Translations under genes and position numbers: made by a program | Assembly: GCF_900104775.1 (NCBI RefSeq) | Contig: NZ_FNSA01000003.1 | Location: forward strand, 4,030,001 to 4,094,000 | Origin: Tsukamurella tyrosinosolvens | GTDB taxonomy: Bacteria > Actinomycetota > Actinomycetes > Mycobacteriales > Mycobacteriaceae | Direction: 5' to 3' | DNA: 64,000 nucleotides | Notes under the pieces: model-generated | What the model saw: the letters and a program-made list of their open reading frames with translations, nothing else | Databases searched by the model: none | What the model was told of the DNA's origin: nothing | Part shown: positions 8,645 to 15,758 of the stretch, in pieces | Numbering within the stretch: the first letter of the stretch is position 1 | How the letters are laid out: each line of letters opens with the position of its first letter

Positions 8645-9931
8645 TCAGGCGCCGTAGCGGGGGAAGGCGGTGTCGCCGGCGTACCGCGCGGCGTCACCGA
8701 GCTCCTCCTCGATGCGCAACAGCTGGTTGTACTTCGCCACCCGCTCCGACCGCGCCGGCGCACCGGTCTTGATCTGCCCCGAACCGACGGCGACCGCCAG
8801 ATCCGCGATGGTGGTGTCCTCCGTCTCACCCGAGCGGTGGCTCATCATGCTCTTGTAACCGTTGTTGTGCGCCAGCGCCACCGCATCCAACGTCTCCGTC
8901 AGGGTGCCGATCTGGTTGACCTTCACCAGCAGGGCGTTCGCCGCGCCCCGGGCAATGCCGTCCTCGAGCCGCTCCGGGTTCGTCACGAACAGGTCATCAC
9001 CGACCAGCTGCACCTTGTCACCGATGGCATCGGTCAGGTCGACCCAGCCCTCCCAGTCGTCCTCCGAGAGCGGGTCCTCGATCGAGACCATCGGGAACTC
9101 CCCGATCAGACCCCGATAGAACTCCCCCATCTCCGCCGCCGAAAGCACCTTGCCCTCGAACTTGTAACCCTGCGGGGTGTAGAACTCCGTCGCCGCCACA
9201 TCCAACGCCAACGCCACATCCGACCCCAGCTGCAGGCCCGTCTTGCCGATCGCCTCCGAGATCAGCTCCAACGCCTCCCGCGTCCCCGCCACCGACGGCG
9301 CGAAACCACCCTCATCACCCAAGCCCGTATTCAGCCCCTTGGCCTTGAGCACCGACTTGAGAGCGTGGTAGACCTCCGCGCCCCACCGCAGCGACTCCTT
9401 GAAGGTCTCCGCACCGATCGGCGCGACCATGAACTCCTGGACGTCGACGCCGCTGTCCGCGTGCGCGCCGCCGTTGAGGATGTTCATCATCGGCACCGGC
9501 AGGATGTGCGCGTTCGGCCCACCCAAGTACCGGAACAGCGGCAGCGCCGCGGACTCCGCCGCGGCCTTCGCCGCCGCCAAAGACACACCCAGCAGGGCGT
9601 TCGCACCCAGCCGGCTCTTATCCGGCGTGCCATCCAGATCCAACAGCGTCTGATCGATGACCCGCTGCTCATCAGCCGGAATGCCGATCACCTCCGGCGC
9701 GATGACCTCCAGCACACCCTCGACAGCCTTCATCACACCCTTACCGAGGTACCGGTCACCGCCATCGCGCAGCTCCACCGCCTCATGCTCACCGGTCGAC
9801 GCACCCGAAGGCACCGCCGCACGCGCGAAGCTGCCATCGGCCAGCACGATCTCGACCTCCACCGTGGGGTTACCACGCGAATCGAGAATCTCGCGGGCGC
9901 CTACCTGGACGATCTCGCCGGCGGTCGTCAC
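8645..9931 (-). CDS. eno: Enolase
   Basis: Conversion of 2-phosphoglycerate to phosphoenolpyruvate in the cytoplasm, Mg2+-dependent. 428 residues, the family length. Visible: [13 protein letters not shown] at the N-terminus, [14 protein letters not shown], and the enolase signature around [14 protein letters not shown] with [19 protein letters not shown] (19) near the C-terminus. GTG start overlaps the gap stop codon (GTGA), so translation is coupled and this is the last gene of the pyk-fba-gap-eno operon. In most mycolata eno lies elsewhere, next to a septum gene (divIC); this copy may be additional or relocated. Convergent with the aminotransferase gene, 16 bp apart. Confidence 0.96.
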
Positions 9932-10947
9932 AGCGACTTCCCCACGAGGCCGGTGAGATCCACGAGGCGGTTGCTGTAGCCCCACTCGTTGTCGTACCAG
10001 GAGACGACCTTCGCCTGGTCGTCGATCACCTTGGTGAGGCCGGCGTCGAAGAGCGAGCTGTGCGGATCGGTGACGATGTCGGAGGAGACGATCGGGGCGT
10101 CGTAGTACTTGAGGATGCCCTTGAGCTTCCCTTCGGCTGCGGCCTTGAGCGCGGCGTTGATCTCGTCGGCGGTGGCGCGCTTGCCCAGCTCGACGGTGAG
10201 GTCGGTGACCGAGCCGGTGGGGATCGGCACGCGCAGCGCGTAGCCGTCGAGCTTGCCCTTGAGCTCCGGCAGGACGAGGCCGATCGCCTTGGCGGCGCCC
10301 GTCGAGGTGGGCACGATGTTGATCGCGGCGGCGCGGGCGCGGCGGGGATCCTTGTGCGGGCCGTCCTGCAGGTTCTGATCCTGCGTGTAGGCGTGGACGG
10401 TGGTCATCAGACCGCTGACGATGCCGAACTCGTCGTTGACGACCTTCGCGAGCGGGCCGAGGCAGTTCGTGGTGCACGAGGCGTTGGAGATGATGTTCTG
10501 GCTGCCGTCGTACTTGTCGTCGTTGACGCCCATCACGATGGTGATGTCCTCGCCCGACGCGGGCGCCGAGATGACGACCTTCTTCGCGCCGGAATCGAGG
10601 TGGCCCTGCGCCTTGTCGCGGGCGGTGAAGATGCCGGTCGATTCGACGACGACGTCGACGCCGAGGTCACCCCAGGGCAGCGCCGACGGGCCCTCGCGGA
10701 CCTCGAGGGCCTTGATGACCTGGTCACCCACGCGGATGGAGTCGCCGTCGGCGACCACGTCCGCATCGAGGCGGCCGAGGATGGAGTCGAACTTGAGCAG
10801 GTGCGCCAGCATGGCGTTGTCGGTGAGGTCGTTCACCGCGACGATCTCGATGTCGGTGGCGCCGCCGAGCGCCTTCTGGGCGGCGACGGCCCGGAAGAAG
10901 TTGCGGCCGATCCGCCCGAATCCGTTGATGCCTACGCGAATGGTCAT
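9928..10947 (-). CDS. gap: Glyceraldehyde-3-phosphate dehydrogenase, NAD-type
   Basis: Oxidative phosphorylation of glyceraldehyde-3-phosphate to 1,3-bisphosphoglycerate. 339 residues. NAD-binding [11 protein letters not shown] at 6-16, catalytic Cys158 in SNASCTTNC, the partner His in [10 protein letters not shown], and [12 protein letters not shown] near the end. AAAGGA precedes the ATG at a good distance. It follows fba by 84 bp and overlaps eno by 4 bases. The usual actinobacterial arrangement gap-pgk-tpi is not present: pgk and tpiA are absent from the window. Confidence 0.96.
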
Positions 10948-11031
10948 GGTTGTGTTCCTTTCGGGTGTGTCCGTTCGGCGGTGTCTCCGCGGCGTCGGAC
11001 AGGGATGAGTCTGTGGTGCAGCCGGTCCCGG

Positions 11032-12060
11032 CTACGTCGCGCTGATGGACTTGCCGGCGGAGTGCAGGTCGTTGCAGGCCTCGACGACGCGCTCGGCCAT
11101 CGAGGTCTCGGCCTTCTTCAGGTAGGAGCGGGGGTCGTAGACCTTCTTGTTACCGACCTCACCGTCGATCTTGAGGACACCGTCGTAGTTCGACAGCATG
11201 TGCCCGGCGACCGGACGGGTGAACGCGTACTGGGTGTCGGTGTCGACGTTCATCTTCACCACGCCATAGGACAGCGAGTCCTCGATCTCCGACTTCAGCG
11301 ACCCCGACCCGCCGTGGAAAACGAAATCGAACGGCTTGCTCCCCGCCGGCAGGCCCAGCTTCTCGGAGGCCACCGCCTGACCGTCCCGCAACACCTCGGG
11401 GCGCAGCTTCACATTCCCCGGCTTGTACACACCGTGGACGTTGCCGAACGTCGCCGCCAGCAGATACCCCTCCGCACCCAGCGCATCGACGGTCTTCGCG
11501 AAATCCTCATCCGAGGTGAACAGCTTGTCGTTGATCTCGTTCTCGACGCCGTCCTCCTCACCACCGACCACACCGATCTCGATCTCCAGGATGATCTTCG
11601 CCGCCTTCGCCTTCGCGAGCAGCTCCTGGGCGATCTGCAGGTTCTCCTCCAGCGGCACCGCCGACCCGTCCCACATGTGCGACTGGAACAACGGATTGCG
11701 GCCGGCATCGACGCGTTCCTGCGAGATCGCCAGCAGCGGCCGCACATACGAATCGAGCTTGTCCTTCGGGCAATGATCGGTGTGCAGGGCGACGGTCACG
11801 TCGTACTGCGCCGCCACCACATGCGCGAACTCCGCCAACGCGACCGCACCGACCACCATGTCCTTGACCCCCAGACCGGAACCGAACTCGGCGCCGCCCG
11901 TGGAGAACTGGATGATCCCGTCACTGCCCGCATCGGCGAAACCCTTGATCGCCGCGTTGATCGTCTCACTGGACGTGCAGTTGATCGCCGGGTAGGCGTA
12001 ACCGCCCTCACGGGCGCGGTCCAGCATCTCCCGGTAGGCCTCGGGGGTGGCAATGGGCAT
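11032..12060 (-). CDS. fba: Fructose-bisphosphate aldolase, class II
   Basis: Zinc-dependent cleavage of fructose 1,6-bisphosphate into dihydroxyacetone phosphate and glyceraldehyde-3-phosphate. 342 residues, as in M. tuberculosis Fba. Zn/active-site motifs: LHTDHCPKDKLD (His and Asp), the His in GNVHGVYKPGN, and FHGGSGS for phosphate binding. AGAAGGA lies just before the ATG. Second gene of the operon, 50 bp after pyk. Confidence 0.96.
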   Translation of the reverse strand: MPIATPEAYREMLDRAREGGYAYPAINCTSSETINAAIKGFADAGSDGIIQFSTGGAEFGSGLGVKDMVVGAVALAEFAHVVAAQYDVTVALHTDHCPKDKLDSYVRPLLAISQERVDAGRNPLFQSHMWDGSAVPLEENLQIAQELLAKAKAAKIILEIEIGVVGGEEDGVENEINDKLFTSDEDFAKTVDALGAEGYLLAATFGNVHGVYKPGNVKLRPEVLRDGQAVASEKLGLPAGSKPFDFVFHGGSGSLKSEIEDSLSYGVVKMNVDTDTQYAFTRPVAGHMLSNYDGVLKIDGEVGNKKVYDPRSYLKKAETSMAERVVEACNDLHSAGKSISAT

Positions 12061-14636: not shown

Positions 14637-14642
14637 GAGGCG

Positions 14643-14671
14643 TTGTCGAAACGTTCCGATCCGCGTCTGAT
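14643..14671 (+). promoter_or_regulatory. pfkA promoter: TTGTCG-17-TCTGAT
   Basis: TTGTCG (14643-14648), a 17-base spacer and TCTGAT (14666-14671). The layout palindrome-7-(-35)-17-(-10) copies that of pyk. The untranslated leader would be about 50 bases and carries AAGGGGAAAG before the GTG start. Confidence 0.55.
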
Positions 14672-14726
14672 GGGCCGAGTACAACGACGGCCGGACGGCC
14701 GCGATCCCACGACGAAGGGGAAAGAA

Positions 14727-15758
14727 GTGCGCATCGGAGTGCTCACCGGTGGTGGTGACTGCCCGGGCTTGAACGCGGTGATCCGCGCGGTGGTCCGCAC
14801 GAGCGATTCCCGCTACGGCTCGGCGGTCGTCGGGTTCCAGGACGGCTGGCGGGGCCTGCTCGAGGACCGCCGCGTGCAGCTGTCGAACGACGACCGCAAC
14901 GACCGGTTGCTGACCAAGGGCGGGACGATGCTCGGCACCGCCCGCACCCACCCCGACGTGCTGCGCGCCGGCCTGGATCGCATCCGCCAGACCCTGGACG
15001 ACAACGGCATCGACGTGCTCATCCCGATCGGCGGCGAAGGCACCCTCACCGCCGCCTCGTGGCTCGCCGACGAGGGCGTCCCCGTCGTGGGCGTACCCAA
15101 GACGATCGACAACGACATCGACTGCACCGACGTCACCTTCGGCTTCGACACCGCGCTGACCATCGCCACCGACGCGATCGACCGCCTGCACTCCACCGCC
15201 GAATCCCACCAACGCGTCATGATCGTCGAGGTCATGGGACGCCACGCCGGCTGGATCGCCCTGAACTCCGGGCTCGCCTCCGGCGCCCACGCCGTCCTCA
15301 TCCCCGAGGTCCCCTTCGACGTCGAGGACCTCTGCGCCATGATCAAACGCCGCTTCCAACGCGGCCACGCCAGCTTCATCGTCGTCGTCGCCGAGGGCGC
15401 CAAACCCGCCGAAGGCACCATGGAACTGCGCGTCGGGGGCACCGACGAGTTCGGCCACGAACGCTTCACCGGCGTCGCCCACCAGCTGGGCGTCGAGATC
15501 GAGAAGCGGATCAACAAGGAGGTCCGCACCACCGTCCTCGGCCACGTCCAACGCGGTGGGACCCCGACGCCCGCCGACCGCGTCCTCGCCACCCGCTACG
15601 GCGTCAACGCCGCCGACGCCGCGCACGCCGGGAAGACCGGGCAGATGGTCTCGCTGCGCGGCACCCAGATCGGGCTCGTCCCCCTCGCCGAGGCGGTCAA
15701 GCAGCTCAAACGCGTCCCCCGCGAGCGCTACGACGACGCCGCCGAGTTCTTCGGCTGA
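14727..15758 (+). CDS. pfkA: 6-phosphofructokinase
   Basis: Phosphorylates fructose 6-phosphate to fructose 1,6-bisphosphate, the substrate of the aldolase encoded nearby. 343 residues. GTG start gives [16 protein letters not shown], the family N-terminus. GGEGT keeps Gly at the site that is Asp in pyrophosphate-dependent enzymes, and PKTIDND carries Lys at the second diagnostic site, the combination of actinobacterial group III ATP-dependent enzymes. [11 protein letters not shown] and the C-terminal HVQRGG follow. Divergent from the SorC-type regulator. Ends 9 bp from the convergent lipoprotein gene. Confidence 0.95.

Follow-up and report, generated by a model that had tools for sequence, protein, structure and literature searches.

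The DNA analysed here is a stretch of 64,000 nucleotides (the window) from the 5.28 Mb genome of Tsukamurella tyrosinosolvens, in which a compact set of glycolytic genes surrounds the gene of a SorC-family regulator. On the minus strand the gene order is sorC–pyk–fba–gap–eno, pfkA is divergent, and the set spans positions 8645 to 15758 (Table 1). The curated NCBIfam cut-offs were exceeded by eno, gap, fba and pyk, and pfkA exceeded the TIGR02483 cut-off. These profile scores bear out the gene identities and order given in an earlier note on this DNA (the original prediction), whose coordinates fit closely as well; its remark that pgk, tpiA and pgm are missing also stands, as none was seen on reading the open reading frames of the cluster. 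With a probability of about 0.72, we consider the set to be an accessory 7.1 kb cassette with its own regulator of the SorC/DeoR type, predicted to bind GCCCATATGGGC/GCYCATATGRGC in the sorC–pfkA gap, at the pyk operon and at ppc, with operator-free copies of the same genes scattered elsewhere in the genome. The DNA itself shows the parts and their duplication, the insertion site, a closed set of sites, the co-occurrence of the sites with the cassette, and a related palindrome of the regulator clade outside the genus.

Family searches in the window genome found two eno, two pyk, two PFK and two class II fba genes, together with two close gap genes and one more distant gap-like gene. The locus as the genome's only source of glycolytic genes is thereby ruled out, since each of the five enzymes has a scattered second copy; the cluster is an accessory duplicate set and not the sole copies of the cell. 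These second copies, like the empty site in relatives described below, lay outside what the original prediction could see. For comparison within the genus, 16 Tsukamurella genomes were used (G000 to G015, G000 being the window genome). Two eno genes occurred in six of them, and cassette genes were present in all six. Single copies of eno, pyk, PFK and close gap were found in G007, G009, G012 and G013, where G012 gave two aldolase hits, one from another size class; G006 was too fragmented for a copy-number call. Downstream of the scattered gap of G004 come pgk, tpiA, secG and ppc, and the gap–ppc spacing is the same in the window genome.

Judged by the relatives without it, the 7.1 kb block is an insertion between the stops of two genes that are adjacent in G013 (L154) and G008 (L157), where the flanking genes lie about 10 bp apart. 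Inspection by eye revealed no target duplication at either end of the cassette, and no transposase search was made. The regulator gene occurs in 7/16 genomes (G000, G001, G004, G005, G010, G014 and G015), with pfkA adjoining and a sorC identity of 95–97%, so that the association goes beyond chance and, as the original prediction expected, is conserved in relatives. The contents of the cassette vary: it lacks eno in G001 and pyk in G014, and in G015 it is reduced to sorC, gap and pfkA, the last being the only PFK hit in that genome. The standard site of G010 has no cassette, and sorC–pfkA and gap–fba–pyk lie on two other contigs; the cassette is therefore elsewhere in G010. Cassette genes stand at contig ends in G002, G003 and G011, without sorC in the assembly, and G009 and G012 have a rearranged neighbourhood in which the cassette was not seen. 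A different accessory cassette was observed in G008 (L108, G008:C1 4369-13921), beside a carbohydrate phosphorylase, and comprises a ROK-family regulator, gap, a masked stretch, pyk, pfk and a second ROK-family (glucokinase-like) gene. A further pyk–gap pair lies elsewhere in G014 (L113, G014:C1 8074-10516); this extra pyk matches in two frames and may be broken.

The sugar-binding effector domain of the SorC family (PF04198) was recognised in the regulator with an E-value of 1.5e-58 and 198.5 bits against a cut-off of 27. In a structural model, a DNA-binding part of about 58 residues precedes the effector domain, with helices at residues 6–21, 26–33 and 37–50, and sequence alignments with the full-length DeoR, SorC and LsrR chains begin at residues 15–28 of P0001. 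On this model the regulator is of the SorC/DeoR type, with a short, homeodomain-like helix-turn-helix (HTH) of 50–60 residues. A CggR-type regulator was rejected both on the DNA-binding domain, which is short and lacks the roughly 100 residues of a winged HTH, and on the operator; the CggR-type form GGGACN{22,32}GTCCC had no exact match in the window, with 3.57 expected by chance. The predicted SorC/CggR-like regulator thus holds as to its family and not as to the CggR type.

Throughout the window genome, GCCCATATGGGC occurs twice, once in the sorC–pfkA gap (O1) and once between sorC and pyk (O2), and both sites are present in all seven regulator-bearing genomes. The relaxed pattern GCYCATATGRGC gave 19 matches in these seven genomes, namely seven at O1, seven at O2 and five upstream of ppc. 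Among the remaining nine genomes, G002 and G003 each had one match, at ppc, and G007 and G013 each had one away from ppc; the reversed pattern, used as a control, hit a single place in each of 2/16 genomes. Within the window alone and with one mismatch allowed, two sites were found, a number that 7 of 100 shuffles reach and that is not beyond chance, so the case for the operators rests on the places of the sites and their conservation. In G000, none of the five scattered glycolytic genes had a site with fewer than three mismatches within 300 bp of upstream DNA. The layout at O1 and O2 is the same in 7/7 genomes: palindrome, 7 bases, TTGTC(G/A), 17 bases and a -10-like hexamer. Promoters were called by hand with the actinobacterial -10 form TANNNT in mind. 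At O2 the pyk start lies 7 bases beyond the -10-like hexamer, and the transcript may therefore be leaderless; the pyk -35 matches TTGACA at 5/6 bases. At the putative sorC promoter the palindrome overlaps the -35 region, as for repression. By the operator shared between O1 and O2, the five enzymes look like one control unit under a SorC-family protein, as had been proposed.

This unit probably includes ppc, the gene of phosphoenolpyruvate (PEP) carboxylase, elsewhere in the genome. Among the 12 ppc upstream regions examined, a site was found in all seven cassette-bearing genomes with ppc (G000, G002, G003, G004, G005, G010 and G014) and in 0/5 genomes without this cassette (G007, G008, G009, G012 and G013), whose best matches had 3–5 mismatches. 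The distance from the palindrome centre to the ppc start is 49, 50 or 59 bases, with the one-turn variant in G002 and G004. The best match at the ppc fragment of G006 had two mismatches and lay about 1 kb from the gene. No ppc hit was obtained in G001, G011 and G015, two of which keep the regulator. A regulon of the five local genes, as first proposed, looks right for those five and is probably too narrow. The regulator appears to switch the spare set and not the ordinary copies, through a mark that in G000 stands only at the set and at ppc.

With regards to the origin of the regulator, 85 genomes of an order-wide sample of 397 (its own genome included) matched it at an E-value of 1e-40 or better; outside Tsukamurella the best identity was at most 52%. 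From the 84 other genomes, 30 loci were taken as outgroup (L138, L139 and L215-L242), of which 28 reach 1.5 kb on each side. Sites resembling GCTCAnnTGAGC, defined as having at most two mismatches to GCTCATATGAGC within 350 bases around the sorC start, occurred in 30/30 outgroup loci, with 59 in the promoter windows and none elsewhere in 142 kb. Two or more sites were found in 27 loci, and in 17 of the 25 with exactly two these were spaced 104–107 bp apart; among more distant SorC paralogues, such a site was present in 3/21 loci. A zinc-type dehydrogenase (L138/L139-like) was encoded in 26/30 outgroup stretches and a solute-binding protein in 20/30, the two query loci counted; the stretches, 28 of them with 1.5 kb per side, held no glycolytic genes. 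For G028 and G031, the neighbours of the regulator were taken from lists of open reading frames and four proteins were checked against Pfam, which placed the dehydrogenase in the zinc-binding alcohol dehydrogenase family; polyol use as the role of this clade is a guess. In the tree the Tsukamurella regulator nests inside the outgroup clade. At position 3 the operator has T in 59/59 outgroup sites and C in the cassette sites, and the ppc sites of G000, G003, G005 and G010 combine one half of the C form with one of the T form. The recognition helix reads SRF in 13/13 aligned outgroup rows and SRY in 7/7 Tsukamurella rows. It thus appears that the regulator was co-opted for a duplicated set of glycolytic genes and for ppc.

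Within one genome, the cassette copy and the scattered copy of some genes are nearly identical. At third codon positions they agree by 95–99% for fba (five genomes) and by 86–95% for eno (six genomes), versus about 55–85% between species. In quick trees the two copies of a genome were sisters for fba in 5/5, eno in 6/6, pyk in 2/3, pfk in 3/6 and gap in 0/8 cases, and holding all cassette rows together was rejected for all five genes (approximately unbiased test, p from 1e-4 down). The homology between copies is limited by the coding borders, beginning and ending no more than about 20 bases from them in 24/24 pairs, and the cassette gap copies mostly form groups separate from their scattered counterparts. 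Gene conversion between the two sets best explains the near identity of fba and eno and would be the simplest account of it; pyk and pfk seem to have been converted in some genomes only, and gap appears to have escaped. Third-position composition is shifted in the duplicated genes (eno, fba, pyk, pfk and the copies of relatives). For eno, T3 was 0.11–0.23 in the 12 copies of the six two-eno genomes versus 0.02–0.06 in six one-eno genomes, and the genes flanking the cassette in the window had 0.02–0.08. Both pfk copies of G005 and G010 have an odd composition.

Table 1. Features of the cassette, its borders and the scattered copies (window positions, or contig and position for the scattered copies)
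Feature	Position	Strand	Remarks
Flanking aminotransferase-family gene	7471-8628	+	Stop at 8628 is one cassette border
Whole inserted cassette	8629..15767	.	Bounded by stops of the two flanking genes
eno, cassette copy	8645..9931	-	TIGR01060, 659 bits; GTG start overlaps gap stop (GTGA)
gap, cassette copy	9928..10947	-	TIGR01534, 440 bits
fba, class II, cassette copy	11032..12060	-	NF006628, 500 bits
pyk, cassette copy	12111..13532	-	NF004886, 759 bits; putative GTG start
Putative pyk promoter TTGTCA-N17-TACGTT	13540..13568	-	7 nt past O2; layout in 7/7 genomes
Predicted operator O2, GCCCATATGGGC	13576..13587	.	Between sorC and pyk
sorC, SorC/DeoR-type regulator, 320 aa	13589..14551	-	ATG at 14551, GGAGGAGG before start
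Putative -10 of sorC promoter, TAGTGT	14596..14601	-	From alignment; TACGCT-like in relatives
Predicted operator O1, GCCCATATGGGC	14624..14635	.	Between sorC and pfkA; invariant in 7/7 genomes
Putative pfkA promoter TTGTCG-N17-TCTGAT	14643..14671	+	7 nt past O1
pfkA, PFK_mixed-type 6-phosphofructokinase	14727..15758	+	TIGR02483, 464.1 bits (cut-off 430.55); putative GTG start
Flanking Asp/Glu-racemase-family gene, convergent	15768-16766	-	Stop at 15768 is other cassette border
Scattered fba copy	C3:494832		
Scattered eno copy	C3:1058481		
Scattered pyk copy	C3:3175619		
Scattered gap copy	C3:3242082		
Scattered pfk copy	C3:3696448		

In the wider neighbourhood, the cassette is flanked on one side by galK, galT and the genes of a DeoR-type regulator and a sodium:solute symporter, and on the other by glpK and glpD (window 16636-21631 and 4001-7402).

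In the mechanism that we propose, the regulator would bind the palindrome at the three places and, without sugar, repress pfkA, pyk–fba–gap–eno, ppc and its own gene, and the scattered copies would sustain the pathway for as long as the cassette is repressed. A rise of a phosphorylated sugar would make the regulator release the DNA, giving more capacity at the committed steps pfkA and pyk and at the PEP branch ppc; capacity would be raised jointly from fructose-6-phosphate to PEP, pyruvate and oxaloacetate. Relief by a sugar phosphate is likely, and a ketose or triose phosphate, for example fructose-6-phosphate, fructose-1,6-bisphosphate or dihydroxyacetone phosphate, may serve as the signal, because the known effectors of the SorC family, as described in parts of PMC11229326, are intermediates of the pathway under control. 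Gene conversion with the scattered copies would maintain the near identity of fba and eno, and in some genomes also that of pyk and pfk, and the regulator would have come from a clade standing mostly beside zinc-dehydrogenase and ABC transport genes.

Several observations weigh against an operator-controlled cassette of this kind. A sigma-70 scan of positions 8500-16000 found no promoter, and the palindrome lies upstream of the -35, with its centre at about -49 if transcripts are assumed to begin at the start codon. The ppc promoters have poor -35 boxes, compatible with activation. The regulator was not seen in 9/16 Tsukamurella genomes, of which contig breaks perhaps explain three; the genomes are related, so that the presence and absence of the ppc site are not independent events; and conversion is not general, as the incomplete sister pairing of gap, pfk and pyk demonstrates. 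A position upstream of the -35 is used by the repressor DeoR of Bacillus subtilis, whose operator extends from -60 to -21 with the palindrome on the upstream side (according to passages of PMC11229326), but it is open to activators as well, which leaves the sign of control uncertain. The same regulon might thus be driven by a ligand-dependent activator that touches RNA polymerase from a site near -49, or -59 at some ppc genes. The fixed distance to the start, with its one-turn variant at ppc, and the weak -35 there would suit such a protein. However, a pyk promoter with so good a -35 should need less help, the palindrome on the -35 region of the putative sorC promoter is placed as for repression, and the DeoR precedent makes repression the better bet, so that we regard activation as rather unlikely.

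It is very improbable that the regulator uses the palindrome at the sorC promoters alone, with those at pyk and ppc being passengers or belonging to another protein and the cassette being a gene-dosage duplication. Such a reading could draw on the fact that the operators are predicted and on other regulators close by, such as the DeoR-type protein beside galT, but it would have to accommodate that GCYCATATGRGC has no other place in the seven regulator-bearing genomes, that the spacing is equal at O1 and O2, that the site is absent from ppc in the five cassette-free genomes, and that a related palindrome accompanies the regulator clade in all outgroup loci. The similarity of fba and eno might also have arisen without gene conversion, if each species had recently and repeatedly re-duplicated or re-assembled the cassette; the consistent sister pairs of both genes would speak for this. 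We consider this improbable, as the insertion site, the gene order and the sorC–pyk and sorC–pfkA spacers are common to the species, sorC itself is 95–97% identical, the cassette gap copies stand mostly apart in the trees, and the copy homology ends at the coding borders.

The repressed accessory cassette may be part of a broader picture, which we hold tentatively and at slightly less than even odds: a movable, self-regulated second glycolysis with its own sugar-phosphate switch, into which the host ppc has been drawn via an operator in trans and several of whose enzymes are repeatedly rewritten by conversion to match the host copies, so that control would differ more than chemistry; the change from SRF to SRY may have accompanied the operator shift from GCTCA to GCCCA. 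The listings of a literature search gave no description of this cluster, in agreement with the suggestion of an undescribed switch. If true, a SorC-family sensor would have been recruited to glycolysis a second time and separately, from the other subfamily and on duplicate genes. As the host has an operator-free set beside the operator-bearing one, deletion of one regulator would allow flux control to be studied while the only copies of essential genes stay untouched. Together with the outgroup operators and the single-residue difference in the recognition helix, the three operators offer a testable case of a change in regulator target.

For comparison with known systems, the closest parallel in layout is the CggR/gapA operon of B. 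subtilis, in which a SorC-family protein likewise heads a glycolytic operon; as there, the regulator here probably senses a phosphorylated intermediate. According to parts of PMC11229326, the winged HTH of CggR comprises about 100 residues, and its gene heads a six-gene operon with those of five triose-phosphate enzymes; its operator is given in parts of PMC8579813 as GGGAC-N-GTCCC. CggR is released from its DNA by fructose-1,6-bisphosphate or dihydroxyacetone phosphate. In contrast, our regulator has a short HTH and another operator, a 12-bp palindrome, and the cassette genes are second copies; the overlap between gapA-pgk-tpiA-pgm-eno and the present set (pfkA, pyk, fba, gap, eno and ppc) is limited to gap and eno. 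DeoR of the B. subtilis dra-nupC-pdp operon shares with our regulator the SorC/DeoR subfamily, a divergent or adjacent operon and a palindrome upstream of the -35. However, DeoR serves deoxyribonucleoside catabolism, and its operator sequence is unrelated (half-operator ATTGAACAAAATTTCAAT); a second half-operator is described for it in parts of PMC11229326. Binding to DNA as a tetramer, with a palindrome and a second half-operator, characterises the SorC/DeoR subfamily; the palindrome here lies in a DeoR-like position. The outgroup actinobacterial regulators belong to the same clade, with 35–52% identity and GCTCAnnTGAGC-like operators in the sorC promoter, and differ in operator position 3 (T versus C here), in the helix (SRF versus SRY here) and in having no glycolytic genes in the flanks covered, which extend 1.5 kb to each side in 28 of the 30 loci. 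Duplicated central-metabolism genes are also found in another actinobacterium, Streptomyces, where two pyruvate kinases stem from an ancient duplication, have diverged in kinetics and are both constitutively expressed, as reported in parts of PMC5801464. The Tsukamurella genes, unlike these, lie clustered as a set of five together with a regulator of their own, and their copies have been kept alike.

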